From the IMG/VR virus record IMGVR_UViG_3300042553_000326, positions 1 to 64,000 of that record: a stretch of 64,000 bases of DNA. One strand, given 5' to 3'. Shown here in pieces: positions 1,747 to 54,194 of the stretch. The position numbers and the translations under genes are program-made. The notes beneath the pieces are model-generated. The model did not search any database. It saw only the letters and a program-made list of their open reading frames with translations, and had not been told where the DNA came from. Source of the stretch: a virus. Every line of letters starts with the position of its first letter. The first letter of the stretch is position 1.

Positions 1747-1776
1747 TTCATATAAGATACCCAAAAACCCGCAGTT
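1747..1776 (-). promoter_or_regulatory. conserved phage promoter-like motif, copy 1
   Basis: On the minus strand CTGCGG, 12 nt, then CTTATATGAA, with GGGTAT preceding the last block. The spacing is identical in all four copies. It lies 33 nt upstream of the start at 1714. The motif is not a sigma70 promoter in layout. Confidence 0.75.
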
Positions 1777-2272: not shown

Positions 2273-2302
2273 TTCATATAAGATACCTGCTTTTGCGCAG
2301 TT
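2273..2302 (-). promoter_or_regulatory. conserved phage promoter-like motif, copy 2
   Basis: Minus strand CTGCGC, 12 nt, CTTATATGAA. Upstream of the 55-aa gene. A shortened look-alike on the opposite strand (2292-2315) shares the same TGCGCA core but has a 7-nt spacer. Confidence 0.75.
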
Positions 2303-4051: not shown

Positions 4052-4080
4052 TTCATATAAGATACCATATTTGCCGCAAA
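4052..4080 (-). promoter_or_regulatory. conserved phage promoter-like motif, copy 3
   Basis: Minus strand TTGCGG, 12 nt, CTTATATGAA, 24 nt upstream of the SleB gene start at 4028. Same fixed spacing as the other copies. Confidence 0.75.
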
Positions 4081-6829: not shown

Positions 6830-6847
6830 TGTCCATTAAGTTAACAG

Positions 6848-9802
6848 TTAGGCGTAGAAATTAGATGCCTTATTCTTCGTACCAACGTTGCTAGACTGGT
6901 AGTGGATATCAATGTATTCAATAAAGAAGTCTCCTGCGGTAATCGTAGGAATCGTATTTACTTTGAAAGATATCTTGAGTAGTCCATCTGGTTCGAAATT
7001 GTCAGTATCTAACTGGTATGTACCTGATGTCGTATTTGGCGTAGCTGCGGATAGCTGAATCTCATTGACAAACGTGGTTAATGCCGGATGCGATGTTATA
7101 TTAGTGACACTAATAGTTTGTGACAATAGCCTCTCAGCCTCATAAGCACCATCACGCTTGCCCCATCTATAGCGGTAATCCACAGTAGCCGATCCAGATA
7201 TTGCAGAACCGGTATGTGACCAGTGGACGTGAATATAAACATCAGTTCCGGGCACATGATCGTGTGGCCAATGGAATTTCAGATCGATAATATCATTGGC
7301 TACAAACTTCCACTCCTTGATGTTACCAGACCATGTAGTCCATACCGGTGCTCCTGCGCCGCTTTCTTTAGGCTGTATTACACCTTCTAGATCGCGCCAA
7401 GACCATGTAGGCGCGGCTGGGTCAACCTGGATACCACTACCCGATGTCTTGGGTAGAACTAAATTACCAGTGGAGACTTCTACATTCCCACCACTCTTTA
7501 TCTTAAATCTAGTGGTATTACCGTCGTTTCTTAGGTGTAATTCATTTGCCACGGTAGCATGCGACTGACCGAAGCATATAACCGCCGCACCTAACACACT
7601 GGAGCTTCCGCCGGACAAGAGTGTGTATCCATCTGTTCCACTAGAGTATGTACCAAACCCAGTAGCCATAACGATGCTGTCACCGAAGTACGCCTTCTTC
7701 GCTACACCCAATCCGCCAGAAACTACCAATGCGCCGGTTGTGGTGGAGGATGAGTCGGTGGTGGAACCAAGTGTGATGACGCCGGTTGTTTTGGCAATCT
7801 GAAGCGGTGTAGTTCCAGCGGGAACATCTCGAATAACGAACTGCTCACCGGTGTCATATCGATACCCAATCCGATACTGCTCCACGGTGCTGTTATACCA
7901 AGACATGTACGTGTTGCTGTTTGACAGTTCCGTACCGACAGTGATCCCATAACCTATAACTGCAGCCTTCGCCACCCCTAATCCACCCGCCGTCTTGAGG
8001 GATGCGGCTGTGGTGCTGGTGGCGTTGGTGGTGTCGGTGACTGCCAACGGCGATGCGTAACTGGTTAATGCTAAGGTAAAGGTAGCAATTGTTGAGGTGG
8101 AACCGTCATCCCTTCTCAACACCAACGAAGGAGAGTCTGCGGCTTGTTCAAATGCAAATCCATAAGAAGCAGAAGATAGCGCATACTTTCCGCCGCCCGT
8201 CGCAAAATATGCCGAATACGTCTTAGCGTATACACCACTGCCAGCAGCACTCAGCGTACCAACTACAGCAGCTCCTGTAGTCGATAAGGATAGCGTCTTT
8301 ATTCCACCAGCGTACAAATCCATCGTATTTGCGGCGGATTCTACTAGATAAGTGTCACCTACTGCAGTAACACCATCCAGATACAACTTAGCAGTAGATC
8401 CTATGGCAAGATTTCCGCCAGATGTTATCCTAAGACGTTCCGTATCTGCACCAAGATTAGAGCTGCCAGTTCGCAAGGTGAATTTGAAACCAGTATCTTG
8501 ATTGTTAACAGTTGCGTTCTCACGGAATGCTTTAATAGTGCCCGTACCCGCGTACGCTGATCCAGCAGAGGACCATGGTACGAATGAAATACCGATCGAG
8601 GAGCCGGAATTGATAGTTGTACTTGCAGGATGCTGCAATGATAGCGCACAGTGCCACGATTGGCCAGAGTCATCGCCTGACAATATTCTAGTCGCGACTG
8701 CACCAGTAGTAACAGTGAATGTATTAGTACCGCCTGCATAAAAATCCATCGTATTTGCGGCGGATTCTACTAGATAAGTATCACCACCAACCCCAGAAGC
8801 GCCGTCAAGGTAATGTTTCTTAGTGGCTGAAGTCACCATATCACCTGCGGTCGTGATGGTGAAGTTTTCGTTGAGGGTAGCCGCAGTCCCTACTGCAATA
8901 AGCGAAGCGTTAGCCTGATAGAACCTCAGAGCATTGTCCATCACCAGAGCGCCGCGTGGATGCGATGCCGCCGCAGAGGTCGAAAGGAACGTACTTCCAG
9001 TAGTGGTAGAACTACGTACCCCGTACCCGAGCATGGTGGCCCCAGACGAGTACATGGCACCGAAAGTGTTCAAGTAATCTGTGGTGCCGTATCGTAACTG
9101 CAACCCAACACCGCCAGAAGTTGACACTACGTCGCTAGCTGTAACGACACCGGTTACGGTAAGCCCCGTGGATCTAACCTGCAATGTCTTAACCCAGGAG
9201 CCACCGTATGCCCAACCGTCCATACCCTCACCGCCAGCTGGCAGTTGCCACATAGCGGTGTTTACACCAACGGACGGACCGACTCCAATATAGGGACCAG
9301 CCGCAACTGAATCAGAGCCTGCTCTATTTGCTGACAGGCCAACAGTGGAGTATAACGTACTAGTACTGGTCAGTGCGCCAGTGACTGCCGCACCTGTACT
9401 ATTCACTGTCAGTATGGCTGACCCATTAACTCTCAGGTAATGTGACTGGCCTGTGTTAGTGTCGTAGTACAACCCAGAGCCGGTATATCCGAATATCGAG
9501 GAGTGCACCGCGACTGCCGACGAGTAGAACTGTATCTTCTGGTACACTGCTGAGCCTGCGCTGCGGAGATATATAGTGCCATCTCCATTAGACTCACCAT
9601 ACACATCTAGCGTACCAGAGATTCCAGTGTTTATCGAGTTGACACTGACACCTAATCTGCCACCAGCATATAGCGACAGATTATTAGCACTGGATTCAAC
9701 TATATAGGTATCACCTGTACCTGCCACACCGTCGAAATACAGCTTAGACAAAGCCGCCAGTGAAGCAGCATTCTGCACTACTCTTAAAGGCGACTTAGCC
9801 AT
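6848..9802 (-). CDS. second large modular tail fibre protein
   Basis: 984 aa. Repeats of two unit types alternate: 'K.YLDGV...GDTYLVESAANTMDLYAGG' (near residues 22, 345, 480) and 'TTxATSTTAASLKTAGGLGVAKxA' (near 600 and 690), the same modules as in the neighbouring fibre. The last ~150 residues (EWKFVANDIIDLKFHWPHDH...) form a different, probably jelly-roll-like terminal domain. The start overlaps the stop of the larger fibre by 8 nt, so both are likely in one fibre complex that contacts the cell surface. Confidence 0.85.
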   Translation of the reverse strand: MAKSPLRVVQNAASLAALSKLYFDGVAGTGDTYIVESSANNLSLYAGGRLGVSVNSINTGISGTLDVYGESNGDGTIYLRSAGSAVYQKIQFYSSAVAVHSSIFGYTGSGLYYDTNTGQSHYLRVNGSAILTVNSTGAAVTGALTSTSTLYSTVGLSANRAGSDSVAAGPYIGVGPSVGVNTAMWQLPAGGEGMDGWAYGGSWVKTLQVRSTGLTVTGVVTASDVVSTSGGVGLQLRYGTTDYLNTFGAMYSSGATMLGYGVRSSTTTGSTFLSTSAAASHPRGALVMDNALRFYQANASLIAVGTAATLNENFTITTAGDMVTSATKKHYLDGASGVGGDTYLVESAANTMDFYAGGTNTFTVTTGAVATRILSGDDSGQSWHCALSLQHPASTTINSGSSIGISFVPWSSAGSAYAGTGTIKAFRENATVNNQDTGFKFTLRTGSSNLGADTERLRITSGGNLAIGSTAKLYLDGVTAVGDTYLVESAANTMDLYAGGIKTLSLSTTGAAVVGTLSAAGSGVYAKTYSAYFATGGGKYALSSASYGFAFEQAADSPSLVLRRDDGSTSTIATFTLALTSYASPLAVTDTTNATSTTAASLKTAGGLGVAKAAVIGYGITVGTELSNSNTYMSWYNSTVEQYRIGYRYDTGEQFVIRDVPAGTTPLQIAKTTGVITLGSTTDSSSTTTGALVVSGGLGVAKKAYFGDSIVMATGFGTYSSGTDGYTLLSGGSSSVLGAAVICFGQSHATVANELHLRNDGNTTRFKIKSGGNVEVSTGNLVLPKTSGSGIQVDPAAPTWSWRDLEGVIQPKESGAGAPVWTTWSGNIKEWKFVANDIIDLKFHWPHDHVPGTDVYIHVHWSHTGSAISGSATVDYRYRWGKRDGAYEAERLLSQTISVTNITSHPALTTFVNEIQLSAATPNTTSGTYQLDTDNFEPDGLLKISFKVNTIPTITAGDFFIEYIDIHYQSSNVGTKNKASNFYA

Positions 9803-12800
9803 TTCTGCGTACTCCCATAACTGTTATTTGATCACCGACGACACTTGCATCTGCTAATACCACAGACCATCTGAAGCCATCGAACGTTGTTGTGTAATCC
9901 TCAGTGCTACCCGGCCAGAGTAACATACCATTGCGATACACGATTTCAATCTCATAGCCAACTGGTAGCTGGAAGCTTGTCTGTGAGGCAGTTGCAGTGA
10001 ATCTAGTTGCAACCAATGCAGCACCGAACTTAGCAACCTGTTCAGCTTCTCTACAAAGTTCTTCTCTGAGGTTATACGCTGGAACATAGATGTCTACTCC
10101 ACTAGCGCCACCTTGTGCAATAATGCCACCAGAGGCTGACAATGCTGTGATGGAACCTACAGCTGTTGCTTCAGATGCGGTACGCACGAGTCCCTTGAAA
10201 GTGGACCTACCATAGGACGTACCTGCATGTAGCAAATCAGTTTCGTCATCATAAGCAAGTGCAGTTACAGTATTGCTTGTACCCGCGAGGCAGCATTGCG
10301 CGTTGGCCGAGAACAGCCCCTTCTCAGTTTCGTAGATGTGTTTGATCTGCTCGGCGGACGGGGCGGTTGCGGCGAAACGGAGCAGCGCCAACTGACCATA
10401 ACTCCAAGGTTCATCAGGTGCGGAACCTTTCTTTCCTAGGCGAAGATACGCAGAGGTATTTGTGAGGTTGTTCGTGTTGGCTACGGTTCCGGCTGCTACG
10501 GCGTTAATATGCCATTCCATTACGCCAGATCGACGCACCAGTGCAAAGAACGTCATGACGCCAGACGCAAGGGCAATGCTGGACACGAGGCTCGCCGTGG
10601 TGACGCCGCCCGAGTCTCTTGTGTACGCTGAAAATACCCCGGTATTGGCATTCAACTCGATAGCAATGTACGCATTGGCATACGCTGCCGCCGACCGATC
10701 GAGCAATCTGAAGTTCGCGCCATAGGTCGTATAGGATGCCCACCCCAGGATGCAGAAGTCACCCGTCCCGAAATCCAAATCGGAGTTGTACGGCTGTTCG
10801 AGGTAGTTCGCGGCGCTGAATCCGCTGTAGCCCATCAGCGCAGCGCCGGAGGCGACGGCGGCTTTGGTCAGCGAACCAAAGGCTTGTAAGCCCTTGGCCT
10901 TGATGCTGCGGTCGACGTCGGCGAGGCGGCAGGACACGTTGTCTATTGCGCCAACGAACGAAGTATTGTTCGACTGTATGTATAACACCGCGTCACCAGC
11001 CGCAACACCTGACACCGAATAAGTATTTCCAGCAGTAACCGCAAAGGTTTTTAGCGTGTTAACACCTGTGTAAACACTTAGGTTTCCAGAACCAGTCGCG
11101 ACAGTTAGTGTTGTTACGTAAGTTTTCCCTGAAACAAGGCCTACGTTCTGATAACCCGTTGCATTTGAGAAGACGGTACCATCAATATTAAGCGTACCAC
11201 CACTGATCGTCACTCCAGCAGACTTTGTCCACGCAGTGTCAGACGCAAATGATCCGTTAGTCACCAGATCAGTACCAACCAAGGTCTCCGCTACGGTATC
11301 GGCCAGCCATGCGCCTTTGATTGCGCCTACTTGCCAGCCGGAGTTAAAGTCCTTGGTTACGTAGGCGACCATACCTTTCGATGGGGTCGATGGGTTGCGC
11401 TTGAAAATGTTCAGCCCAAGCTCTGTCCCGATTGCTTCGGGTACGGCAACAAGCTGCGTGCCGACTCCACCGCGATAGCTCAAGTCTGGCACACTGGCGA
11501 AAGCGCCGTTGTCGTAGAACTCAAGCGAAGTGTTCTTGGTGGTGTAGACGTGGGTTGTGTCTGCTGTTGGAATCGCATCAACACGAACACTACGCCGGGT
11601 TCCGTTTCCGTCATTCTCGAACATGATGGTTTTCTCGGGCGTGAAGGCCACCATGAAACAGTAGGCCGCGCCACCATCCGGCACGATGTCCCACACGCTG
11701 CCGGTATCGGTGATAACGCTTACACCACCTGCCGTAGCCACCGCAATCGTAGGCACAGGTAATCCTGTAGCGACATCGACCGGGGCGTTGGGTAGGACGG
11801 TCATGGCGACATCATTAATCTGCGAGGAAATTACAGGCTTTGTTAATAGACTATTTACGCCATACCCACTCGCAGAATTACGAGCAGCAATATTTCCTTT
11901 ATACACACCACCTTCGGACGTATACTGTGGATCCATCCTATACACGAATTCAGAGATGAAGTTAATAACCGGTGCTCCATAAGAGTCCGATCCAGTATTA
12001 TGAACCTCCACAAGGGTGCCGTTTAACATGGCTACAGAGCGTGCTGTTGATAGAGTTTGAACCATATTGACTGTTACCATGCCCTGCGAGCCAGCTGCAA
12101 ACACCATCCACATCGGTGCATTCGCCTGTGTCAAGTCGTGGATAACTACTCTATAAGAGTCAGCTGTGATAAGTGCCTTCGCTGGAAACTTTCTAGCATT
12201 GCCACGGTATACTAACGTAACCCCACTACCAGCGTTAAGGCTATACCACCAATTTGAAGTACTATCGTAATAGTAACTTCCTGTTGTGGCTCCAGCAATC
12301 GCTCTGGCTGCCGCCTCATTAACCGCTACACCTAGCCAGCTACCTGCAAGGGTTTCATTTTCCCAGCTAGTATGACTACAGCGATGCCGCCATGCACCAC
12401 CATCGCTATCCTTCTCGGTGTCATATAAGAATACATCTAAGATAGCATATGTGCTTAACAATCTGTCAACCGCCACAGAGGTTATGTCAGTCGTAGACAG
12501 AGAGCCTGTAACAGCGGCCCCTGTAGGGGTCAGCGACACTGTCTTAACGCCACCCGCGTACAGGTCCATTACGTTAGCGCTTGACTCGACTATGTAAGTG
12601 TCACCGCCGCCGTCAAGATAATGCTTCATTGTGGAGGCTTGTACCAGATTCTTCGCCAGGCCCATTCCGCCACTAACCACAAGTGCGCCGGTGGTGGTGG
12701 AGGATGAGTTGGTTGTGTCGTGGAGGGTAGCTATGACGCTGGCAATGCCTGTTCGAGAGAACGATAGAGCCGTCAGTCCGTTAGTGCGTGCATCGTTGAA

Positions 12801-14365
12801 TGCGCGAATCCGGAATATTCCATCACCGACAGCTGTACCAGACTGAATACCCCACCGCTTTTGATCCACAGATGCCGATGCGTTGTATAACTCCATAACG
12901 CTGTTCGTGGCATTACCAAGAATTAGCGTTGAAGTTGTTGTATCACTTAATCCACCGAGCCATGTGCTCTTCGCCACCGCCAATCCACCAGCCGTCTTGA
13001 GCGATGCTGCGGCGCTGCTGGTGGCGTCTGTGGTGTCGAGGACGGAGAGAACGCCCAAGGTTTCTAGGCGAGTGGTCCCTGTTGGTATTTGAGCTACTGA
13101 GCTACCAATGGAGTTGGCAAGAACAAAGTCGTGTGTTGATCCAGCACCGCTGACAACCATACCGCCTGTGGCTGATCCGTTAATCTGCCACCCACCGGCG
13201 GATGGTGCTGAATACGTACCTGATGTTCCAGACAACCTTCCAATGAAATCAACCCCACTTCCTGTCGCAGCCAAGCGCTCAACCAATCCACCGTCTTTGA
13301 TATAGACACGCTGCGTTCCGGTACTGGTGAAACCCATTTGGAATGAGTTAGCTACTGTAGACATCGTTATTGTGGCATCAGCAGTACCACGCAATGTCAG
13401 ACGACCGACACCATTCGAACCAGTAGTACCCAGGTCTGCGCCGATGTTGCTGCTAATAAATCCTGTAGCACTCAGCGTCCCGGTGACTGCGAGGCCAGCA
13501 TCTGTAAGCGTCAACACAGGAGTAGTGAATGACGTTCCACCTACCGTGCTAGACGGGGTAAATTCCAAGGCTCCTGCTGTTGTACCGTTTGTCCCGATCA
13601 GCCAATTCTTAACTGTGTTGGAGTAAATCATGCGAAGCTGTGCGGAAGAATTTACAGAAGGGGATGTCGGCCCCATCTGTAGGGAACTACCGCCTGTCGT
13701 CGTGTTGGAGACATAAACGCTGTCACCGAAGTACGCCTTCTTCGCCACCCCCAATCCGCCCGCCGTCTTGAGCGATGCTGCGGTAGTGCTGGTGGCGTCG
13801 GTGGTGGAGATGATTGCTATGTCGCCAGTTGATGCGTTGATGGTTAGACGCGATACAGACGCTGTGCGGAAATTAAGGTCTTGGGCGTCCATCGTACCGA
13901 TGGTGCCGTTATTGATAATTTGAACACCCGAGGTTCCAACAACACCGGCTGTAATCTGACCGGCGGATGTCGTGATGTTATTTGTCGCCGAGAGCGCTCC
14001 GGTGACGGTGAGGCCGGTAGACGACAAACGCATCTGCATTGCTGCGCCATTGTTAGCAGAGAAGGCTATACCGGAAGGGCCACGTAAGATAGTGTCATAA
14101 CCTGTTGCGCCTACTATGAGGTTATTGCCACCTGTGCTATTCTCCATCCCGAAGATGGCGTTACCACCTGTATTAGTTAGCTGGATGGCAGTGTAGCCTG
14201 TCGACACGTTAGTTGAACGTAATGCAAGTGTGTTATTACCGCCAGCTGCGTAGAAACTCCCAGATGTGTAAGTATCAAGACCTACTCGTAAGCTTTTAGC
14301 TACAGCTAGGCCACCTGCAGTCTTAGCCGATGCAGCAACGGTGCTAGTAGCTTCTGTTGTGTCTG
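7680..14365 (-). repeat. dispersed coding repeats in the two tail fibres
   Basis: Two repeated coding units are scattered through both fibre genes. One encodes TTGALVVSGGLGVAKKAYFG or the ASLKTAGGL variant (about 7690-7750, 7965-8035, 12645-12715, 12975-13045, 13735-13805, 14300-14365). The other encodes GDTYLVESAAN...YAGG (about 8300-8370, 8730-8800, 9670-9740, 12550-12610, 14910-14985). Nucleotide identity between copies is visibly high, which would allow recombination within and between the genes. Confidence 0.8.
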
Positions 14366-15155
14366 TGATGGATACAATACCGGATGCTGCAAGCGTTCCA
14401 GTAATACCAACACCAGCTGCGTTCCATGATAGGATACCTGAACCAGCAACAGCTAAGTAACCTATCCAGCCAGTGGGCGTATTAATGAACGGAGCAGAGT
14501 TGTACAGAGATAACCCAGCTTCTGTTGATAAGGGAGCGCCTGTAGGTTTAAAGCGAGAAGCATCAGCGACACCTGTAGAACTAAGTGTACCTGTGATTAC
14601 TGCATTACCATTGGAACCGCTACCTGTGATACGAAACACTTCCGTTGTCGAGCCGCTGTACCCAAGCCTAATGGCGAAGGCTGATTGCTGTCCAGCCAAC
14701 GCATACCCATAAAGTGCAAAGGTGTTGTTATTAGCGGATGTAGAATCCAGGCTTTGCATACGAAGTATTGGACCACTAATACCAGCAGAATATGCTGCAG
14801 TATCTCTCACCACCAGCGGAATTGCACCAGTAAGAGTGACAGTATCAGTTGCACTGATTGTACCTGTTACAGAAGCGCCTGTGGCAGTCAGCTTCAGTGT
14901 ATTCACTCCGCCAACGTAAGCATCCAACACATTGGCGCTAGACTCAAGCAGGTACGTATCGCCACCGACACCTGCGACACCATCCATGTATAACTTCTTC
15001 GTACCAGCCAGAATGATATCATTCAGCGAGCTGATATTGTTGATTGCCTTGTTGAGATTGTCAATGTTAGTGTCAATCTCGGCGTTAGTAAGTGGGAGAC
15101 CCTTTACCGTACTCCCAGTACTATTTCCAGTTTCCCGTAAAAGGATAGTTGCCAT
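9795..15155 (-). CDS. very large modular tail fibre with lectin-like domain
   Basis: 1,786 aa. The N-terminus (LPLTNAEIDTNIDNLNKAI) is a common fibre attachment segment. Residues ~40-930 are beta-structured repeats; ~930-1300 contains a different region (DSDGGAWRHRC..., GSVWDIVPDGG...) resembling surface-binding domains. A CBM-like segment begins NGSFASDTAWTKS (about 1315). A concanavalin A/laminin G-like lectin domain is at about 1430-1615 (NSDLDFGTGDFCILGW to LLRFAATAPS). The C-terminus (IVYRNGMLLWPG) is a typical fibre end. Predicted receptor-binding fibre. The lectin region is GC-richer than its surroundings, suggesting module exchange. Confidence 0.85.
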   Translation of the reverse strand: MATILLRETGNSTGSTVKGLPLTNAEIDTNIDNLNKAINNISSLNDIILAGTKKLYMDGVAGVGGDTYLLESSANVLDAYVGGVNTLKLTATGASVTGTISATDTVTLTGAIPLVVRDTAAYSAGISGPILRMQSLDSTSANNNTFALYGYALAGQQSAFAIRLGYSGSTTEVFRITGSGSNGNAVITGTLSSTGVADASRFKPTGAPLSTEAGLSLYNSAPFINTPTGWIGYLAVAGSGILSWNAAGVGITGTLAASGIVSITDTTEATSTVAASAKTAGGLAVAKSLRVGLDTYTSGSFYAAGGNNTLALRSTNVSTGYTAIQLTNTGGNAIFGMENSTGGNNLIVGATGYDTILRGPSGIAFSANNGAAMQMRLSSTGLTVTGALSATNNITTSAGQITAGVVGTSGVQIINNGTIGTMDAQDLNFRTASVSRLTINASTGDIAIISTTDATSTTAASLKTAGGLGVAKKAYFGDSVYVSNTTTGGSSLQMGPTSPSVNSSAQLRMIYSNTVKNWLIGTNGTTAGALEFTPSSTVGGTSFTTPVLTLTDAGLAVTGTLSATGFISSNIGADLGTTGSNGVGRLTLRGTADATITMSTVANSFQMGFTSTGTQRVYIKDGGLVERLAATGSGVDFIGRLSGTSGTYSAPSAGGWQINGSATGGMVVSGAGSTHDFVLANSIGSSVAQIPTGTTRLETLGVLSVLDTTDATSSAAASLKTAGGLAVAKSTWLGGLSDTTTSTLILGNATNSVMELYNASASVDQKRWGIQSGTAVGDGIFRIRAFNDARTNGLTALSFSRTGIASVIATLHDTTNSSSTTTGALVVSGGMGLAKNLVQASTMKHYLDGGGDTYIVESSANVMDLYAGGVKTVSLTPTGAAVTGSLSTTDITSVAVDRLLSTYAILDVFLYDTEKDSDGGAWRHRCSHTSWENETLAGSWLGVAVNEAAARAIAGATTGSYYYDSTSNWWYSLNAGSGVTLVYRGNARKFPAKALITADSYRVVIHDLTQANAPMWMVFAAGSQGMVTVNMVQTLSTARSVAMLNGTLVEVHNTGSDSYGAPVINFISEFVYRMDPQYTSEGGVYKGNIAARNSASGYGVNSLLTKPVISSQINDVAMTVLPNAPVDVATGLPVPTIAVATAGGVSVITDTGSVWDIVPDGGAAYCFMVAFTPEKTIMFENDGNGTRRSVRVDAIPTADTTHVYTTKNTSLEFYDNGAFASVPDLSYRGGVGTQLVAVPEAIGTELGLNIFKRNPSTPSKGMVAYVTKDFNSGWQVGAIKGAWLADTVAETLVGTDLVTNGSFASDTAWTKSAGVTISGGTLNIDGTVFSNATGYQNVGLVSGKTYVTTLTVATGSGNLSVYTGVNTLKTFAVTAGNTYSVSGVAAGDAVLYIQSNNTSFVGAIDNVSCRLADVDRSIKAKGLQAFGSLTKAAVASGAALMGYSGFSAANYLEQPYNSDLDFGTGDFCILGWASYTTYGANFRLLDRSAAAYANAYIAIELNANTGVFSAYTRDSGGVTTASLVSSIALASGVMTFFALVRRSGVMEWHINAVAAGTVANTNNLTNTSAYLRLGKKGSAPDEPWSYGQLALLRFAATAPSAEQIKHIYETEKGLFSANAQCCLAGTSNTVTALAYDDETDLLHAGTSYGRSTFKGLVRTASEATAVGSITALSASGGIIAQGGASGVDIYVPAYNLREELCREAEQVAKFGAALVATRFTATASQTSFQLPVGYEIEIVYRNGMLLWPGSTEDYTTTFDGFRWSVVLADASVVGDQITVMGVRRNG

Positions 15156-15613
15156 TATGCGCCCCTAAGAGTCCAGATGACGGACATCGAGTCCGCAGCA
15201 CCTTTGGTGATCACGTCGAAGATTGCCCTAGCAATCATACTACCGCCTGAAGCTGCATTGAACATGCCAACCTCAACTAGAGCACCCGTACCGGTACCGG
15301 CAGGGAACACAGCAGTGACAACCAAGCTGTCATTCGCAAAGTTCGTTGTAGAAATTACAGCGCTGTCAATGGCTACTCTCCCGACTTCAGCCACTAAAGC
15401 AGTCTGTGCAGCAGCTGCAGCGGTATTGGTAGTACCTACAGCCATATGTGATAAAGCGCTAGCAGCTGCATCTTTCATTCTGGATATAAACAAGGCTAAT
15501 CCAGTTTGTACAACTAAGTTATCAATCTCTCGTGTTTCTTTAAGAGCACCTTCTGCATCTCTGATTTCTATATGCAGTCTGCCCTTGAAACTTACAACAC
15601 TATTGAATTTCAT
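15155..15613 (-). CDS. tail-associated virion protein
   Basis: 152 aa from the ATG at 15613 (AAGGA 8 nt upstream). It begins with a beta strand region containing EIRDAEGALKETREI, then NLVVQTGLALFISRM and an Ala-rich segment (ALSHMAVGTTNTAAAAAQTAL). This layout is common in phage proteins encoded next to tail fibres. Stop and start overlap with the fibre gene (1 nt). Exact role unknown. Confidence 0.7.
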   Translation of the reverse strand: MKFNSVVSFKGRLHIEIRDAEGALKETREIDNLVVQTGLALFISRMKDAAASALSHMAVGTTNTAAAAAQTALVAEVGRVAIDSAVISTTNFANDSLVVTAVFPAGTGTGALVEVGMFNAASGGSMIARAIFDVITKGAADSMSVIWTLRGA

Positions 15614-15624
15614 TTCTTGCATCC

Positions 15625-16194
15625 TTAAGTGAATTGTGCATATGACCCTACAGCGTAGTCTTCTGCGAAGTACGTACCGTTGTTATAACTCTGTATCAGG
15701 CATGCACCTGTGGATGTGAAGCTTACAGCATCGTCTAACACTTTAGACATGCTGATGTAATTCGTATCCGCTATAGAAACGGTATCTAATAAGGACTTTG
15801 TAAGGTCTATTGCAGTTATACTATCCAGCATACTATAGGTATCGGATAAAACTTTAGATACATCAATAGCATCGAGCTGGTCACTAAAGGATATAATATC
15901 CTCTGCTAGTGGTTTGGTCACAGATATTGCAGCACTGTCTAAAATACTAACAGTGTCTACATTATATATTTCTCGGTAGTTATCTACGATATTACTATCG
16001 GATAGCGGGCCGAAATCTGTTATCTGAATATCTATGCTCACAGTATCAGCTGAGGCACTGAGATCGCCCTGCACTGGTTCGTTTACAGTAATATTCTCGA
16101 TTACTGAAGAATCTACAGTAGTACCACTCGAACTGGTAGCAGGTAGATCGATAACACGAGAGGTACCAGATAAAGTTATCGTCTTAGTTGACAT
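15625..16194 (-). CDS. repetitive virion protein, 189 aa
   Basis: Acidic, Ser/Asp/Thr-rich, with repeating D.VSI.D..AI...K.L.D units of roughly 25 residues (residues 45-165), suggestive of a beta-structured, repetitive structural protein. No homologue recognised. Start and stop codons overlap with the 200-aa gene upstream (1 nt). Confidence 0.7.
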   Translation of the reverse strand: MSTKTITLSGTSRVIDLPATSSSGTTVDSSVIENITVNEPVQGDLSASADTVSIDIQITDFGPLSDSNIVDNYREIYNVDTVSILDSAAISVTKPLAEDIISFSDQLDAIDVSKVLSDTYSMLDSITAIDLTKSLLDTVSIADTNYISMSKVLDDAVSFTSTGACLIQSYNNGTYFAEDYAVGSYAQFT

Positions 16195-16796
16195 TATGTT
16201 AGCTCAGTTGGACTAAATAAAAACTCTATCATACCACGCATAGGTTTCCATGTGCGAGGATATAGTGCGCTATTAGGTTCAGTCACACGTAATTCAAAGA
16301 ATCCATTTGTAGGAATTCCGGGTTTTGGTTGAACTGCCCAATCGGTTGACAATGTTTTTGGAAATTGAATATAAACCTTATTAGGTATATAACTAACCCA
16401 ATCTGAAGACTGTGACGGAGGTACAGCATTGACGATACTAGTGCCATTTAATCGTTTATAGTAACCATCACCGTAGGTAACCACTTCTTCGCGTGAGTAT
16501 GAATTGGCAGCATTCCATACTCCTGTCTCTACAGGGACACGTACAGTCAGTGTGTCAGTCTCACCACCAGGTTGCACAGTAGTAGGTACTACTTCTAAGC
16601 CATCTTCGTCTAGCTCACCAGTATTGGCAGCTTCAATTATAGAAGCTTCAAATATATAAGCGCCACTATAGGCGTTAGTCAGAAAGGCCAATGTTATTTC
16701 AAATTCCTGTTGTTCACCCTGAACGAGAGACCAGAGTACGGAACCTGAATCCGTTTGTAAATCTGTTGTTGTATCGATAATTCTTGCTCTAGCCAT
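16194..16796 (-). CDS. putative virion protein, first gene of the fibre operon
   Basis: 200 aa, beta-rich, no TM. It contains VWNAANSYSREEVVTYGDGYYK, which resembles the 'W....Y..GD.V.y.G..Y.' carbohydrate-binding/chitin-binding style motif seen in many phage tail proteins (residues about 92-115). The gene follows a non-coding region that carries repeat A, so the fibre operon probably starts here. Confidence 0.7.
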   Translation of the reverse strand: MARARIIDTTTDLQTDSGSVLWSLVQGEQQEFEITLAFLTNAYSGAYIFEASIIEAANTGELDEDGLEVVPTTVQPGGETDTLTVRVPVETGVWNAANSYSREEVVTYGDGYYKRLNGTSIVNAVPPSQSSDWVSYIPNKVYIQFPKTLSTDWAVQPKPGIPTNGFFELRVTEPNSALYPRTWKPMRGMIEFLFSPTELT

Positions 16797-16863: not shown

Positions 16864-16916
16864 TCTGTAGCGATTAATACAGGGGAGCGGTAAAGTTCAA
16901 TAATTTAACAGTTTCG
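16864..16916 (-). repeat. intergenic repeat, copy A (upstream of fibre operon)
   Basis: 53 bp that match 45674-45725: a shared TCTGTAGCGATTAATACAGG block, AGCGGTAA, then AATTTAACAGTTTCG. The first block is an inverted repeat (CTGTA...TACAG). Both copies precede a morphogenesis operon on the minus strand. Confidence 0.8.
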
Positions 16917-16983: not shown

Positions 16984-17170
16984 GCCCGGAGTGTGTTGCG
17001 CCACATGGGTTTCGGCGGTTTTGCACGCTACGGGGCCAGGTTGGGCCATAGCGAGGCGCAACGGCGCGGGATGGCATGGGTATCGGCGACCTCCCAATCG
17101 CCCCGCCTGCACCAAACGTCGAGGCCACTCGTCCGGTCGGCGCAAACAGGTCGATCGAGAATAGCCCAAA
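16984..17170. other. GC-rich non-coding island, copy A
   Basis: Clearly GC-richer than the flanking genes and without a supported ORF. It shares the words GCACGCTACG, CAGGTTGG and (inverted) GTCCGGTCGG with the island at 54010-54172. Either a foreign insertion or a structured RNA or DNA element. Confidence 0.6.
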
Positions 17171-36784: not shown

Positions 36785-39700
36785 TTATCCGATCCCGTAC
36801 CAGTACAAATTCTTATCGAACTTATGCTCAATAGGTTTCAGAATGTCTTCTCTTGTGAGGATATCCTCGATTTGCAATACTTTACCACCAACAACAGAAC
36901 GACCAGGCACTGGAATAAGTCCTGTGTCGATAGCCTCATTGAGATATTGGTCATACAGATCCTTAGGCAAACCTCTTGCACGCATCTCATTCAGTGTGTG
37001 CAGGATAACGTTAGACTCTAAAGATTCAGCATATATCTCTCTAAGTGCATCCCTTGCCTTCAGCATGTCAGCAGCGTTCGACAAGAACGCATCATGAACA
37101 GTTGAAGTATCTATGTTATTCCTTCTTCCCCATAGATGATATTTCTTTACTAATACAGCATCGTTACTGTGGTTAGTGTTAACCCCGAAAGCTGTCTTAG
37201 CTTTGTTTAAATCAGCGATATCCTGCATAGTATCAGACTTATTTCTAATCTCTTGCCACCATGTAGGATCGGTCTTCTGTTTAACCTGAACGATATTCGT
37301 TATCCACTCACCATCCTTACTTTTGTACAATAGTTTTTCCTCGAAAGACTGTGTGAACTTTTGTTCAACAACCTTTCCATCGAAATTAACTACAGGTACA
37401 TTAGTCCAGTTCTTAGGTAATTTATTTGGATGCAAAACATCGAATCCACCAAACAGATTCTCTTCTATATCGCCTAACTTAAACTTTACCTTTCCAAGGT
37501 TCTTACCTGTTACACGATCTATAGGATCTTTAACTCCGAATACAATATCAGAGAATGTACTATCAGGTTTGAACCAAGGTATTCTTTTTAGAAGTTTCTC
37601 GCTAAGAGATTCAGATGCTTTAGTACCTAGTATTTCGGCTGCTAGTGGTGACAACTTATCACCAGAGCTGTAATTACCAAATACCATCTGTCTCGCGATA
37701 ACTGCAAAGTCTAATGAGGATTGCGATGGCTTAGCACTGGTTAGGAAATCAGCTGCTAGTCTACCAAAGAACTTAGTGAAGCCTTTTAGAATAGGGACTT
37801 CTTCAGATAAGTTTTCACTCATTATATTTGCTATTAATTTAAAGTCATCAGGAGTGACGACCTTATTGTAATTTCTAGACATCTTCTCTACGAGATCATA
37901 CGTCTTAGGTTCAAGGAACCAAAGTTCCTCAAGAATGTCATCCCCAGGATCGATACCTTTATTGAAGATGTCCTTCACGTCTTGTCGTAAACTCTTAAGT
38001 TCAGCAGCTGTATCAGGATCAAACCTTTCGAATCTAGCTGCACGAGCACTTATCTGCTCTAATACAGTGTCTCTATCCGAAGCCTTAACCACTAGGGTCG
38101 AGTCTTGTTTATCTAATGCTTTAGCCAACTTAGTTTCTACGTTGATAATACCAGTACGTTCACCTGCTCCGTAGAAGGTCACCATGTTTTGAGCTTTAGC
38201 AGCCTTACGTAGATCTTTTTCCGTTAAGCCTAACTTTTGATTAAGCTTAATGAATCTTGGGTCATCGAAGGTTCTTGCTGCAATCTCATCGTACAAACGT
38301 TTCTTCTGATTGGTTGGTACTACATTAGATAACTCAGCCAACTGCTTATTTTTAGTTGTGAGTGCAATGATCTGAGCGCCAGACGACGATGCATCCTGCT
38401 CAAGAGCTATTGCTATCTTGTAATCACTTAGCTTAGCTAAAGACAGCTTATCATATTTCCCATCAAGGAAATTATGTATTTTAGCTGCTTCAAGTGACAG
38501 TCTAAGAGCCTTACCGAGGTCTTCACCATCTATCTCTTGGACAAACTTAGAATCCAGCACAGCTCTAATGTCACCTGGCTTACCACGTAGAATGTGATTA
38601 CCAATCTTAACCATCTCAGGGCGTAATTCTGATGCTATCAGCTGTCTACCTGTGACGGATAATGAGTTATGTCTACCTTCGAACTTATCAGAAAGTCCAC
38701 CTAGAAATCCACCTATCTGATCATTTAGGTTCCTCCATCCAGCTTCACTGAATGGCTTTGCTTCCTTACTATTTAAGAAAGGTCTAAATGATTCACCAGA
38801 TTGAGGCCCAATAAAGCCTCTTTCGTAGATACGTGCACGGTGATCTAGGAATGGTATATTACTGAACGAAGCATTCTTCTTTCTGAGCCAATCCATTACT
38901 TTGAATCGCTCATAGGCATCGCCACGCTCTACCATGTATTCGCGGTAGGTATTCAACTCATTGTAATGTTTAGCGCGACCTTTATCGTCTTCAAACAACA
39001 TCAGCTTATTGATGAAATCATAGAACTCATTATCGATACGATATTCAGTCCTACCTGCCCAATTAAGAGCTTGTGTCATCGACTTATCAATTAATGCCTC
39101 TGGAAAGTCGGCAAAGGAGTCTGTAGACGTTATAGGTATGCGGGTATCGTAATAACCTAGAACACCTTCGTCTATGAAATACGTTTTGTAACCCTCTCTA
39201 ATAATTAAACGGTTTCGCGCATCGATTGGTGTGACACGGATACCTACATCTACTTTTCTAGTTAACTTAGAGTAGTCTTGGATGCGTTTATCGACAATAC
39301 GAAGATGCACAGAGAATGTATCATAAGCAGGACCAAAGTATTTATTACTATTCTTACTCTTCATCCGCCTCTTCTGAACACCAAAGGTTTCTAACTCGTA
39401 GAATCCCTTTCCTTTTGCATCGTCTAACAGTTTAACACCAAGCTTCCACCACTCTTGTCTACTGCCTCTGTAGTTAGCTAGATTATAGAGATCACGTCCG
39501 ATTGCTACAGCGAGCTGATCCCTATCAGGACCATCTGCCAGAGCTAATCTGTTTGCAAACTTAAGATAGAATTGCTTTTTCTGAGGTTCTTCTAGGCGAA
39601 CTAATAGTTTTAAAGGAATTTTCCTATCCAACACGTTACGCAATTCTCTAGCGATCTTCGGTAAGGTTTTATCTTCCCATTTATTCTTTCGTTTTATATT

Positions 39701-41419
39701 AGCTAGGAACTCATCATGAAGCTCGTCTAGTTGGCTAGGTCCAAGAACTGGATCTAGAAAGTTATCTTGCTTCAACCGCTGAAGTAACCCTGTATTGCGC
39801 CTCAGCTGTGTCTCCATGAAGTCCGACACGTTCATCACATCAAACTTCATCTGTCCATTGAGGACTGCCTTAAGATTCTGCCAAGGCTCTTTATTGTTTC
39901 TAAACCTGGTAAATGTAATTCTAAGATTCTCTGTGACAACAGCTCTCTCATTAGAACTCATTTCATCTTCAAGCTTATCTACAAACTTTATGATGAAGTC
40001 TTTATCAGCTTGCTTAAGGTCTGCACTCTCATTAACTAACCTATAACTGTTACTCAATACTGAAGGATTGGGCTGAAATACACGGCTATCCTCGTATCGT
40101 CCCGTTAAGGGGTTGAATAATAACTGATCTTCATTAGGTGGTGTAGATAGAATTCTAGTCTTACTAGCTTTCTTAGTGCCTAGCAGATTACCTCTATAGT
40201 TCGTAAGTGATAACGTACCTTCTAAGTCCCTAGACTGCAGCAGGTAATACTCTTTAAGTGCCTTCTGCAATTCAGTAGATGCAAGTATCTCATCAGGCCT
40301 TGATGCACCTAACTTAAGTACATCTAATCTTTCCTTTGCAGCAGCAAACTTCATCGTATCACCAGGTAAGCCTATACCTGAGGTAGTCATTCTGCGAAGC
40401 TCAGCAATACCTACTTCTTTACCAGAAGGATTAGTGAATTTATCCACAGTAAGCTGTCCACTTCTAAACATATTCAGTCTAGTGGTATCACCAAGGTGTC
40501 TAAGCTGGACTTCAGTAGGTTGACGTTGTAACCACTCACTATAGGACTCTTTTAGTGGTGATTGTCCGTCGTAGTAAGCGATTTGCTTAGCTGTGAGACC
40601 CTCTAGATTACGTTTTCGAATTTGGGCAATATTCTCGAGTGAACCCAAGTCGCTATAGCTTTTGACAATAGGTACAGTGGTACTCCTGCAATGAAAATGA
40701 GCAGGAGGCAAATGAGATACATCACTAATAGGATACACAGTGCCATCGCGATGACGGCAAATAGGGGTAGTTCTAGAATCGAGAACAGCAACGTACTGCC
40801 AACCTCTAAGGACTTTCTCATTAGCTTTATAGACCTCATGATCTGTTTGTGAACGAACCGAGGTCATAGCAGTTCTTACTAAGCCTAATGACTGATTCAT
40901 TGAGATATCAAGGACGTTACCTTTACGTATGGACAACGCAATAGCCTTTTCATCTAGCCCTTGTGCAATACCATTACGTATTACAGCTTCTAATCGTTTA
41001 CGCTCGGAGAGGCTTACTGTATTCCAGCCTTCGAGCAGTGTAACATCATTGTAGATAGGACGCTTTAACACAATGTCTTCAGCTATACGATATTGTGGCT
41101 TAGATGTGCGCCATATCTTACCAACAGCATTATCCAACTGTTGATAAGTGTAGGATATTTGGCTGGATACTAAGTCAAGTAAAGATCTAGAGCTTACATT
41201 ATATGCTTGCCCATAGGTCTTTCTTAATAGCACATCTATCTCTTCCATCATCTTAGGTGACATAGACGCCTTATTACGCAAGATGATATCATCTATCTTC
41301 GTCTTATGGCCATTGACAATGGTGTATATCTTACCAGATACACGCTCCTCGTACAACCTCATCATTGCAGCTCTGTCTACAATATTATCGTATAGAGCTG
41401 TATTCACATTTTGTTTCAT
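36785..41419 (-). CDS. MuF head protein fused to a T7-type single-subunit RNA polymerase
   Basis: 1,544 aa. Residues ~1-255 are a MuF/SPP1 gp7-like domain ending in AVLDSRTTPICRHRDG and LPPAHFHCRS. The C-terminal half carries single-subunit RNA polymerase signatures. These are PEALIDKSMTQALNWA..TEYRIDNE (like the T7 AINIAQNTAWKIN segment), DHRARIY (859-865, T7 DWRGR), QDASSSGAQ with Asp1009 (motif A), R1071-x3-K1075-x3-M1079-x3-Y1083-G1084 (motif B, spacing as in T7 R627/K631/M635/Y639/G640), and VHDAF with His1442-Asp1443 (motif C). All catalytic residues are present. The B-to-C interval is about 190 residues longer than in T7. It lies between portal and scaffold, where head-ejected proteins are encoded. 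SD AAGGAG. Predicted virion-packaged RNA polymerase (inference). Confidence 0.88.
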   Translation of the reverse strand: MKQNVNTALYDNIVDRAAMMRLYEERVSGKIYTIVNGHKTKIDDIILRNKASMSPKMMEEIDVLLRKTYGQAYNVSSRSLLDLVSSQISYTYQQLDNAVGKIWRTSKPQYRIAEDIVLKRPIYNDVTLLEGWNTVSLSERKRLEAVIRNGIAQGLDEKAIALSIRKGNVLDISMNQSLGLVRTAMTSVRSQTDHEVYKANEKVLRGWQYVAVLDSRTTPICRHRDGTVYPISDVSHLPPAHFHCRSTTVPIVKSYSDLGSLENIAQIRKRNLEGLTAKQIAYYDGQSPLKESYSEWLQRQPTEVQLRHLGDTTRLNMFRSGQLTVDKFTNPSGKEVGIAELRRMTTSGIGLPGDTMKFAAAKERLDVLKLGASRPDEILASTELQKALKEYYLLQSRDLEGTLSLTNYRGNLLGTKKASKTRILSTPPNEDQLLFNPLTGRYEDSRVFQPNPSVLSNSYRLVNESADLKQADKDFIIKFVDKLEDEMSSNERAVVTENLRITFTRFRNNKEPWQNLKAVLNGQMKFDVMNVSDFMETQLRRNTGLLQRLKQDNFLDPVLGPSQLDELHDEFLANIKRKNKWEDKTLPKIARELRNVLDRKIPLKLLVRLEEPQKKQFYLKFANRLALADGPDRDQLAVAIGRDLYNLANYRGSRQEWWKLGVKLLDDAKGKGFYELETFGVQKRRMKSKNSNKYFGPAYDTFSVHLRIVDKRIQDYSKLTRKVDVGIRVTPIDARNRLIIREGYKTYFIDEGVLGYYDTRIPITSTDSFADFPEALIDKSMTQALNWAGRTEYRIDNEFYDFINKLMLFEDDKGRAKHYNELNTYREYMVERGDAYERFKVMDWLRKKNASFSNIPFLDHRARIYERGFIGPQSGESFRPFLNSKEAKPFSEAGWRNLNDQIGGFLGGLSDKFEGRHNSLSVTGRQLIASELRPEMVKIGNHILRGKPGDIRAVLDSKFVQEIDGEDLGKALRLSLEAAKIHNFLDGKYDKLSLAKLSDYKIAIALEQDASSSGAQIIALTTKNKQLAELSNVVPTNQKKRLYDEIAARTFDDPRFIKLNQKLGLTEKDLRKAAKAQNMVTFYGAGERTGIINVETKLAKALDKQDSTLVVKASDRDTVLEQISARAARFERFDPDTAAELKSLRQDVKDIFNKGIDPGDDILEELWFLEPKTYDLVEKMSRNYNKVVTPDDFKLIANIMSENLSEEVPILKGFTKFFGRLAADFLTSAKPSQSSLDFAVIARQMVFGNYSSGDKLSPLAAEILGTKASESLSEKLLKRIPWFKPDSTFSDIVFGVKDPIDRVTGKNLGKVKFKLGDIEENLFGGFDVLHPNKLPKNWTNVPVVNFDGKVVEQKFTQSFEEKLLYKSKDGEWITNIVQVKQKTDPTWWQEIRNKSDTMQDIADLNKAKTAFGVNTNHSNDAVLVKKYHLWGRRNNIDTSTVHDAFLSNAADMLKARDALREIYAESLESNVILHTLNEMRARGLPKDLYDQYLNEAIDTGLIPVPGRSVVGGKVLQIEDILTREDILKPIEHKFDKNLYWYGIG

Positions 41420-43406: not shown

Positions 43407-44741
43407 TTAGAATCCAAAGCCACGTTTCGCTGTAGTACCACCAGAACGAACAGGAAACTTATATTCAAAGAAGTATCGAATACCATCAGAGTAGTGTTCA
43501 ATACCAGCTGATTTATCTATTGTTGCAGTATCTGGATTGTTATCAACCCAAACAGTCTTCTCTAACGACTCTATGACGCCTTGACATTGTGGATTAACAT
43601 AAGCATTAACCTCACCAGCTGCGGTCTTGAAGTGCTTATTCACAGAAGCCACACTGTCCACTATCTTAGGCGCAGCATCTCTTGCCAACACAGTAAAGCC
43701 CATGCTTCTTAGAATGCTAAAATCAGTAACACCAACAGGAGCAGAAGTCTTTCTACTATTGCCGGATGGATCTGGGTAACAAATAACACGATGTCCTTTA
43801 TCCTTGTATTTAGCTTTAATTGCGATCCCTAATGTTTCTGTATCAGGATGCCCCTTGAATTCGTGATGACAATCAGCACGCTTACCTCTAACTGTCCACA
43901 CAGATGAGCATTGTAATCCGACGTTAAAGTCAATTGCAACATGAACATCTTCACCATCATGTATAGGCTCGATATTCTTGTTAACATGTATCTTGCGATC
44001 AAAGCAATAGAACACATTCTTACCAGAGCCTTCGAACTTAGCAAGGTATTCTCTATTAAAGAATACAGGATCAACACGATGGCGTATCTTGTCTATTTCT
44101 TCTGGATCTAACAGCGGTGATTGTGTGTAATCGAAATGATAAGACTTGAATGTAGGATCTACCTCTTCAAAGTGATACATATCGTATAGATAGTTGTACC
44201 CTTTAGGCGTAGATATTGTCAATGATCTACCTGCAGAAGGTGCTCTATAGAGTTTAGCTCTCTTAGGCGACCAACGTGTCGAGATACAGGGTTCTATAAT
44301 ACTTTCCCATGCATCTTTATGGCCAGCACCTTTAGTCCACGAGGATACCTCATCATTAACAGCATAATATACACCTGTACCACGCTGTCTCTCTACAGCC
44401 TCGTAGGAGAACAACTTAATTTCTACATCATTAGGCAACTTTATTCTACCAAGGTCTCTGCTGGAACTTTGAGCATAACGTTCTAATCCAAGTTGATACA
44501 TTAGCAAAGGATAATAAACGTCAGTCACCTGTGAATAGGTAGGTGCATTTATTACAACATTCTTATTAGGGACGCTAGGACGTAATGTCATAAGCTCCCA
44601 TGCTGCAGTAGATGCAGAGACAGCTGCCATGTGTGACTTGCCCCATCCTCGTGAGGCTACAACAACAGCGTGTCTCACACTCTTCTCTACAAATAGATCT
44701 CTATAAACCTTACTCTGGGTGGGGTGCAGACGGATTGACAT
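43407..44741 (-). CDS. terL: terminase large subunit
   Basis: 444 aa. ATPase domain: Walker A-like ASRGWGKS (29-36) and Walker B YYAVNDE (Asp130-Glu131), coupling STPKG (178-182). Nuclease domain (RNase H fold): acidic residues in AIDFNVG (Asp271), YPDPSG (Asp324) and EHYSDGIRYFFEY (Asp419). It cuts and translocates DNA into the procapsid. Overlaps the small-subunit candidate by 32 nt. Confidence 0.95.
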   Translation of the reverse strand: MSIRLHPTQSKVYRDLFVEKSVRHAVVVASRGWGKSHMAAVSASTAAWELMTLRPSVPNKNVVINAPTYSQVTDVYYPLLMYQLGLERYAQSSSRDLGRIKLPNDVEIKLFSYEAVERQRGTGVYYAVNDEVSSWTKGAGHKDAWESIIEPCISTRWSPKRAKLYRAPSAGRSLTISTPKGYNYLYDMYHFEEVDPTFKSYHFDYTQSPLLDPEEIDKIRHRVDPVFFNREYLAKFEGSGKNVFYCFDRKIHVNKNIEPIHDGEDVHVAIDFNVGLQCSSVWTVRGKRADCHHEFKGHPDTETLGIAIKAKYKDKGHRVICYPDPSGNSRKTSAPVGVTDFSILRSMGFTVLARDAAPKIVDSVASVNKHFKTAAGEVNAYVNPQCQGVIESLEKTVWVDNNPDTATIDKSAGIEHYSDGIRYFFEYKFPVRSGGTTAKRGFGF

Positions 44742-45234
44742 CTTCTTCTTCCCTCAGTAAGGCTTCTACTTCTTCGTAATCTGTTTCGCTAGGATCAATG
44801 ACAAACACATCACCTTCTTGTGTTAACTCAATAGTCAATGGCGGTGGCACATCATCCTTCTTAGCTTCATCCACAGGAATCTTAGCATAACGGTAAGGTA
44901 TTAAGTCGTTAAGTAATTTCTCTTGTGCAGTGGCGAAGCCCATGTGGGCCATCGCTGAATATCCATTCTTCACCTGCTTACCCGTCTCCAGCTCTGCAAC
45001 ATCTTTCATAGCCTGGAGCTCTTCTTGTCTTGTAAGCTGTGCATCAATACGATGATACAGCTGTACCATCTTTTGTATAGGATCGAAGTCTAACTTTGCT
45101 AATGCACGGATAGATTCTCTGGAGTACTTCTTCTTGAAGCCTGGAAGAGGACCACCTCTACGTAAATTAGGTGAGACATTCGGATCAGTTACCCTGGGCA
45201 TTTCATCATCTCTTGAGGCTTTATCGTTAGCCAT
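44710..45234 (-). CDS. terminase small subunit candidate
   Basis: 174 aa, directly before terL and overlapping it. Charged helical centre (FDPIQKMVQLYHRIDAQLTRQEELQ) and acidic C-terminus, like many small terminases. No clear helix-turn-helix was recognised, so the call rests on size and position. First gene of the packaging and assembly block, behind a long non-coding region. Confidence 0.65.
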   Translation of the reverse strand: MANDKASRDDEMPRVTDPNVSPNLRRGGPLPGFKKKYSRESIRALAKLDFDPIQKMVQLYHRIDAQLTRQEELQAMKDVAELETGKQVKNGYSAMAHMGFATAQEKLLNDLIPYRYAKIPVDEAKKDDVPPPLTIELTQEGDVFVIDPSETDYEEVEALLREEEDVNPSAPHPE

Positions 45235-45823
45235 ATTGTATCCCGTAAATAAACTTCGAAAACTAATGCGGTATCAAGTACTTACACCGAAACCGATAAG
45301 AAAATCGCTCGCGCTTTCTATATAGCGCCTTCATTAAGATAACACTTTAAGCATTCGTATTTGCTAATGCTGTGTTCAATGTAGTACTCTGCAATTTAAA
45401 CCTACCTATTTACCTTCTCATTGATTTCTCATTTTCAATATAGGGTTACTATACAAGGTACTTATACATAACTCCCCTTGAGTTATCTAATGCTGTAGGT
45501 TAAAGCATTAGTTATTCTATATTGTTAAATACATAGGTTATTAATACATATTATTATTAATAAAGAAGTATAATAAAGAAGGGGCTTACATTGGTAGACG
45601 AATGCATTAAGCTACATCTGTATTATACCTACATATACCTTCTTCTTAATAGATACATACATACATACAGACGTCTGTAGCGATTAATACAGGGGGAGCG
45701 GTAATGGGTTAATTTAACAGTTTCGCGATAGAAAATAATTGTGTAAATCTTGAACTTTGGAAAATTAAACCTTTAAGTAATCTTGTGGCATTTCGAATCA
45801 AAAAAAAAAAAAAAAAAAAAAAA
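45235..45823. other. AT-rich non-coding region upstream of the packaging genes
   Basis: About 590 bp without a supported gene. It holds a CTAATGC/GCATTAG hairpin (45489-45513), an AT-rich stretch with short repeats (TAATACATA, ATTATTATTAATAA at 45530-45580), a minus-strand TATAAT (about 45620), tandem TACA/ATAC repeats (45648-45668), a perfect 12-bp palindrome ACAGACGTCTGT (45667-45678) and repeat B. Candidate origin and/or late promoter region. Confidence 0.7.
45674..45725 (-). repeat. intergenic repeat, copy B (upstream of terminase operon)
   Basis: Match of copy A at 16864-16916 with few differences. On the minus strand CGAAACTGTTAAATTA is followed by TTACCGCTCCCC and the CTGTA...TACAG inverted repeat. 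Similarity fades into GATAGAA beyond the block. Confidence 0.8.
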
Positions 45824-45824: not shown

Positions 45825-45828
45825 TTGG

Positions 45829-45873
45829 AGAGACCCTTACCCAGTACCCGAAGGCACCAGATAAGGATCTCTC
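45829..45873 (-). terminator. strong Rho-independent terminator with 25-U tract
   Basis: Long interrupted stem (GAGAGA/TCTCTC and CTTA/TAAG, inner part with a UUCG-type apex) overlapping the stop codon at 45872 and followed after 4 nt by 25 U. It ends the right-hand operon. Confidence 0.85.
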
Positions 45874-46309
45874 ACAGGTGTATTACCTTGTCGATTGAAT
45901 CTATCAGAGTGTACAACCTCTGAGTTTCCTCTGTGAAGATACCAAGTCGTTCTTTTCCTTCTTCACCTAGTCTTGTGTAATCCAGGACGAGTCTCTCGTA
46001 GCGCAGAAGATCGAACTTGACACTTGACCTACATGATTCTACCAGGTTTCGTAACTTTGTATTCTCTACGATAAGCTCAGAATTGCGAATACATTGCCTG
46101 CCAAATTCACCTGCCAGTTGCTTGTTCTCGGCTTCGAGGGCGGCGAGTTGCTCCTTCAGTTCATTTCTCAGCCTCTTATACTCGGAGTGATCGAATGTAG
46201 AGGCTTCCTTCAGCCGATTCACCTGCATACGAAGTGACTTAATCTCGTACTTCCAGGAGCCATCTGCTAAGGCTTCAAACTCTTGTTCAGTCATATTGTG
46301 GTCCTCCAT
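45872..46309 (-). CDS. coiled-coil hypothetical protein
   Basis: 145 aa from ATG 46309, which shares an A with the upstream stop (TAATG) and has AGAAGGAG upstream. Almost entirely alpha-helical, with heptad-like Leu spacing (LKEQLAALEAENKQLAGEF, NSELIVENTKLRNLVE). No known family. Last gene of its operon. Confidence 0.75.
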   Translation of the reverse strand: MEDHNMTEQEFEALADGSWKYEIKSLRMQVNRLKEASTFDHSEYKRLRNELKEQLAALEAENKQLAGEFGRQCIRNSELIVENTKLRNLVESCRSSVKFDLLRYERLVLDYTRLGEEGKERLGIFTEETQRLYTLIDSIDKVIHL

Positions 46310-53927: not shown

Positions 53928-53956
53928 TTCATATAAGATACCCTTAAATCCGCAAG
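53928..53956 (-). promoter_or_regulatory. conserved phage promoter-like motif, copy 4
   Basis: Minus strand TTGCGG, 12 nt, CTTATATGAA, 51 nt upstream of the start at 53877. Same spacing as the three copies at the left end, about 50 kb away. Confidence 0.75.
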
Positions 53957-54172: not shown

Positions 54173-54194
54173 AAGACTTCAATTACTGCTCTAC

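Follow-up and report, generated by a model that had tools for sequence, protein, structure and literature searches.

The closest known logic to that of the genome described here is found in Thermus phage P23-45, which encodes a virion RNA polymerase (RNAP) fused to a structural protein as well as a non-virion RNAP, and in which two promoter motifs occur (PMC10770324). Phage N4 ejects a phage-encoded single-subunit RNAP carried in the particle, and a 5-7 bp hairpin with a 3-nt loop is conserved at its promoters (PMC4496689). The promoters of T7 and T3 consist of a contiguous 15-25 bp consensus with a purine at the start, and are present in many sense copies, the first of which lie downstream of the polymerase gene. 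The cultured roseophage DSS3_VP1 (MN602266.1) was reported to have deoxyuridine DNA (PMC12697855). The closest named record, EBPR siphovirus 1 (JF412302.1), is partial and has neither polymerase nor motif annotated.

The present work deals with an intergenic repeat in 64,000 nucleotides of viral DNA (the window; positions 1 to 64,000 of the 75,242-base record IMGVR_UViG_3300042553_000326). The conserved core of the repeat is best explained, with a probability of roughly 0.7, as the promoter of a phage-encoded RNAP, most likely a stand-alone T7-like enzyme, followed by a transcribed leader; promoter function, enzyme assignment and the +1 position are inferred from the location of the sites and from known phage systems. 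As in P23-45, the genome appears from sequence and modeling to combine a structural-protein-fused RNAP with a free RNAP, and it has two candidate promoter motifs. The enzymes of P23-45 are of the two-barrel type, its fusion involves the tape-measure protein and its late genes use the host RNAP, whereas both polymerases of the window phage are T7-type and the fusion is to a MuF domain.

Repeat copies in the window

The first-pass annotation described a 53-bp block at 16864-16916 that recurs almost unchanged at 45674-45725, and re-reading of the window sequence bore out both positions (copies A and B). Both are non-coding and read on the minus strand, in the same sense as the genes, with B heading the terminase/head operon and A the tail-fibre block, as had been noted. 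Each copy consists of two conserved stretches with a short variable spacer of a few unlike bases between them: the first, TCTGTAGCGATTAATACAGGGG(G)AGCGGTAA, is identical at 25 of 26 positions in a repeat search, and the second, AATTTAACAGTTTCG, at 15 of 15. With as many as 3 mismatches allowed, the window still contains just two matches to the 19-mer TCTGTAGCGATTAATACAG (0.02 expected from shuffles), and the entire record has two to its 20-base extension.

The core of copy B, AAACTGTTAAATTAA (45709..45723, minus strand), is a candidate promoter upstream of the terminase/head operon, which comprises a gene in the TerS position (44710-45234, minus), the large terminase TerL (phrog_2; 43407-44741, minus), the portal (phrog_145), the gene of the MuF-fused polymerase (MuF-RNAP) and the major head protein (phrog_247). 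A long non-coding leader (45235-45673) separates this core from the first terminase gene. The core of copy A, AAACTGTTAAATTAT (16900..16914, minus), has a Phage-tail_3 gene on one side and the tail-fibre block (6848..16796, minus) on the other. Further copies, for which the first-pass annotation had advised a search, were found in the form of a third core that it had missed, AAACTGTTGAATTAA (53996-54010, minus), which is without the late box described below. A weak candidate core, TAACTGTTAACTTAA (6836..6850, minus; <9 bits in the matrix scan), is found where a tail-fibre gene ends and is followed by a hairpin.

GC-rich blocks occur just upstream of copy A (16985-17170) and of the third core (54020-54180). 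The former is absent from the close relative L265 and may thus be a recent insertion; in this relative copy A is kept letter for letter and the surroundings differ. Around motif 1 sites in general, GC content has a slight excess upstream, with no clear signal. Upstream of copy B there is a terminator-like hairpin (45828..45873, minus) followed by a run of 24 T (45800..45823, minus). Sense-strand runs of 20-30 T after hairpins are found in the window at 45800-45823, 32-61 and 48624-48643 and in the record at 75169-75198, and runs of at least 10 T in the contigs number 21 in sense and 1 in antisense. Some relatives have a ribosome-binding site or start codon within a few bases of the end of the T-run, so the run may have more than a terminator role.

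Conservation and distribution of the core

By means of the 1544-aa protein encoded at 36785-41419, 53 related loci were gathered. What they conserve is a strand-specific linear motif of 15-18 bp (motif 1), AAACTGTTAAATTA in the window and AACCCGTTAAATTAA(CCC) in relatives, most of which have the form AACCCGTTAAATTAACCC. Genomes of relatives carry 1-7 copies, intergenic and on the coding strand, and the loci contain 27 distinct sense sites vs 2 antisense. In L020, a long relative whose 1544-aa protein is 73% identical, the terminase is preceded by the same arrangement as in the window, a terminator-like hairpin, a T-run and finally AACTGTTAACTTATCCCCCATTCGCCTCCCCCCTTTATTACC, in which the linear sequence survives and the CTGTA arm is broken. 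More distant relatives retain AACCCGTTAAATTAA at the same place. Unrelated sequence in related phages, the outcome that the first-pass annotation had set against its own proposal, was looked for and did not occur.

With a scoring matrix built from 36 relatives' sites, window excluded, copy B scored 23.7 bits, the third core 15.8 and copy A 12.6, against a maximum of 11.5 in shuffles of the record; by matrix score alone copy A is marginal, only just above the shuffles; a site occupies the corresponding place in five genomes. In public collections of viral contigs, 106 stretches contain the exact 18-mer AACCCGTTAAATTAACCC. Cellular genomes (257 Gb) gave 11 matches vs about 7.5 expected by our own arithmetic for a random 18-mer with uniform bases, which is near chance; five of these 11 records were checked and contained neither MuF-RNAP nor relatives, and no host was inferred from them. 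Among large viral contigs with the 18-mer, which like the other contigs compared are metagenomic and mostly incomplete, a PF00940 polymerase is encoded in 18 of 18 and the MuF-fused one in 15; the other three (G015, G026, G028) look like fragments and are therefore uninformative on which enzyme reads motif 1. The 18 contigs have 72 exact CCCGTTAAATTAA sites, every one of them on the same strand as the polymerase genes; a reversed control gave 0.

Megablast against named phages yielded no match. EBPR siphovirus 1, whose MuF-RNAP is 62% identical, has variant cores (GACCGTTANATTAACCC) both before the terminase, after a hairpin and a run of 19 T, and after the MuF-RNAP gene. Motif 1 is absent from DSS3_VP1 and Kolga, and G011 has only weak candidates. 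In G010 both polymerases and a second motif (motif 2, below) are present and motif 1 is absent; a search of this genome for a replacement found none.

The two RNA polymerases

The MuF-RNAP gene (36785..41419, minus; 1544 aa) joins a MuF domain (PF04233) to an RNA polymerase domain (PF00940). The protein, which thus includes a complete T7-type polymerase, is conserved in about 50 viral contigs, and its catalytic motifs are invariant across 17 relatives. A sequence search of the PDB with its profile returned no polymerase and one weak unrelated match, so that a fold comparison was needed. The model of the polymerase part (mean pLDDT 75, pTM 0.78) has T7 RNAP as its best fold match (Z 29.6, 517 residues, 4.0 Å) and is nearer to it than to the N4 virion RNAP (Z about 20). 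The MuF domain and the known phage systems lead us to expect the enzyme in the particle, as in N4. No report of a MuF-RNAP fusion was found in the open-licence literature searched. DSS3_VP1 encodes a homologue, QGH74596.1 (33% identical), annotated as 'minor head protein-like'; the stand-alone polymerase of this phage is QGH74624.1.

The second polymerase, a stand-alone T7-like single-subunit enzyme, is encoded outside the window (record 72026-75006) by a gene interrupted by a group I intron that carries an HNH reading frame (RF00028, 86 bits; L056:10253-10451, equal to record 73252-73450, minus). In several relatives RNAP or MuF-RNAP genes are interrupted as well. The specificity-loop region of the stand-alone enzyme reads NTYQV in ACTG-type genomes, NTLRL in G010 and NTLQL or similar elsewhere. 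That these residues differ where the motif differs is only suggestive, since two lineages underlie the comparison.

Location of the sites and identity of the reader

Motif 1 sites adjoin the same genes in different phages: six genomes have one upstream of the large terminase, five have one beside the tail-fibre block and tail_3-like gene, and in several a site immediately follows the MuF-RNAP gene. Relative to the stand-alone RNAP gene, the first core lies 0.4-3.6 kb downstream of its end in 23 of 27 contigs; of the remaining four, three are without a core in the fetched stretch and one breaks off within the gene. In the window genome this core is a weak one (record 71587). In the available sequence of the 27 contigs, the 2.4 kb preceding the stand-alone RNAP gene contain no core, and where there is a tail-operon core farther away on that side, a terminator-like hairpin and T-run usually separate it from the gene. 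The leaders of this gene have no common hairpin, the T-run being their only shared element.

Multiple same-strand copies at operon heads, downstream of a T7-like RNAP gene, are what T7-type promoters present, and first sites after the gene with none in its leader follow the same logic as T7. As the two polymerases co-occur, presence alone cannot assign the reader of motif 1; the stand-alone enzyme is favored because motif 1 begins downstream of its gene. The late-gene promoter suggested by the first-pass annotation is supported by conservation, strand, position and phage RNA polymerase genes. G010, which has both polymerases and no motif 1, counts against a promoter of the stand-alone enzyme.

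The likeness to T7 and T3 has limits. The window core could not be aligned with T7-type promoters having a purine at +1; its sequence runs on into TTAA(CCC), with a further C-rich box at late sites. In DSS3_VP1, by comparison, an unannotated motif, TAATAGGGTGCGTTAAAGAGGG, aligns to T7 without gaps and has CGTTAAA in common with the window core. Its 13 sense-strand sites (2240 to 59194) include none just before the RNAP gene, the first ones coming after it, and the -17 to +6 layout with a purine start, clear in this phage, is not evident in the window family.

A second motif bears on the choice of enzyme. Motif 2 (window repeat TTCATATAAGATACC in plus-strand form, AAcTGCGGAAAAANNGGTATCTTATATGAAA in sense; TGCGGAAAAANNGGTATCTTATATGAA) has four copies in the window, all on the minus strand, which score 32-37 bits with a matrix made without the window (shuffle maximum 10). 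Three are candidate pre-early promoters (1747..1773, 2273..2299 and 4052..4078) and the fourth (53928..53954) lies 42 bases downstream of the third motif 1 core; motif 2 closely 3' of a motif 1 core is also seen in G000, G001 and G006. Its exact pattern was matched in 74 viral stretches. In relatives, nearly all motif 2 sites are in sense, and most precede the stand-alone RNAP gene by 1-5 kb, with some elsewhere (distances in G000, G006 and G011 assume circular maps). Two distinct candidate promoter motifs stand at the positions expected for pre-early and later regions. The best candidate role for motif 2 is that of pre-early promoter of the MuF-fused polymerase; possibly it is read by the host RNAP instead.

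The MuF-fused enzyme might itself read motif 1 and would then transcribe middle and late genes. It is encoded in 15 of the 18 motif-bearing contigs, the rest looking like fragments, and a site often lies directly 3' of its gene. This reading is nevertheless unlikely, as the stand-alone RNAP leader, where a pre-early promoter would be expected, has no core and has motif 2 in that position, and G010 has no motif 1 although MuF-RNAP and motif 2 are retained. The first-pass annotation had also considered a virion polymerase for the block; such an enzyme is probably encoded, but motif 2 is its likelier promoter.

Somewhat less probable again is an operator role, with the core serving a phage activator that works together with the host RNAP at late operons. 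The TTAA-A-TTAA sequence of the core is palindromic, some late sites have an AT-rich box 17-20 bases on, and the likeness to TATAAT 13-26 bases past the core is 3.94 at late sites vs 3.12±0.22 in shuffles. However, a 5/6 match to TATAAT is attained by only 25% of late sites, other sites are near the shuffles, no sigma-70-like site is common to A and B, and conservation of the flank is confined to one side and strictly oriented.

In the preferred reading, copies A and B would each be a promoter and transcript start read on the minus strand. The core AAACTGTTAAATTA (AACCCGTTAAATTAACCC in most relatives) would be the recognition site of a phage single-subunit RNAP, most likely the stand-alone enzyme, which would serve middle and late operons. 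Transcription would start at the core or a few bases past it and continue into the operon, and at late operons the first transcribed bases would be the C-rich box and a small variable hairpin, probably a 5' leader element. A wider scheme is put forward more tentatively, at a little under even odds: in a large uncultured siphovirus-like group two T7-type polymerases of its own would run the genes, the MuF enzyme entering, reading the ~30-bp AAcTGCGGAAAAANNGGTATCTTATATGAAA and making the free polymerase, which would then read motif 1 at middle and late operons. Such a scheme would supply a sequence signature of how a widespread but little-known phage group organizes its transcription, and the predicted delivery of a polymerase within the MuF head protein is unlike both the ejected polymerase of N4 and the tape-measure fusion of P23-45. 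DSS3_VP1, with both polymerases and a T7-type motif in a cultured phage, makes the idea testable.

Leader elements and hairpins

Late-type sites carry an extra C-rich box (GCCGCCCCCC, GACGTTCCCC), represented in copy B by CCGCTCCCC (45693..45701, minus), common to relatives' late-type sites, and in copy A by CGCTCCCC (16883..16890, minus). Next to it is the CTGTA..TACAG inverted repeat that the first-pass annotation saw in both copies, confirmed here with 5-bp arms and an 8-nt loop; as a leader element it is moderately supported in B (45675..45692, minus), and A has it at 16865..16882 (minus). Hairpins in the 45 bases 3' of the core score 12.13 vs 9.97±0.36 in shuffles, above 200 of 200, and vary in sequence from site to site; some relatives have 3-nt-loop hairpins immediately 3' of the core. 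When the pairing of the window hairpin was followed across 15 sites, it was kept at 53.5% vs 42.9±3.8 in the control and beat all slid versions; the 5-bp CTGTA/TACAG hairpin is mostly lost in relatives. The support from pairing is moderate, and the window's hairpin does not appear to be an obligatory shared structure. The hairpin CTGTATTAATCGCTACAG was also tried as a conserved unit and rejected, since it gave only scattered chance matches in the 53 relatives' loci with up to 5 mismatches.

An N4-type promoter, in which the CTGTA/TACAG DNA hairpin itself is recognized by a virion polymerase, had been raised for this block and is now very improbable. The hairpin is in both copies, a MuF-fused polymerase exists and some post-core hairpins in relatives have 3-nt loops. 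Yet the arm is broken in L020, among the nearest relatives, the loop in A and B is 8 nt, not 3, those scattered matches are all that the relatives offer, and the conserved sequence is linear and upstream of the hairpin. A packaging, replication-origin or recombination site, the last also proposed earlier, is no more credible: B is near the terminase genes and iteron-like repeats occur in relatives' leaders, but many phages have several same-strand copies at conserved operon heads, most far from the terminase, where an att site would be single and tied to an integrase, and the core is constant while leader repeats differ among relatives.

The only integrase-like match is weak (45872-46372, E 4e-4). 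The terminase leader of relatives contains tandem iteron-like repeats of 12 and 23 bases (L020:5061-5145; L016:1227-1327), which are candidates for a packaging or origin site.
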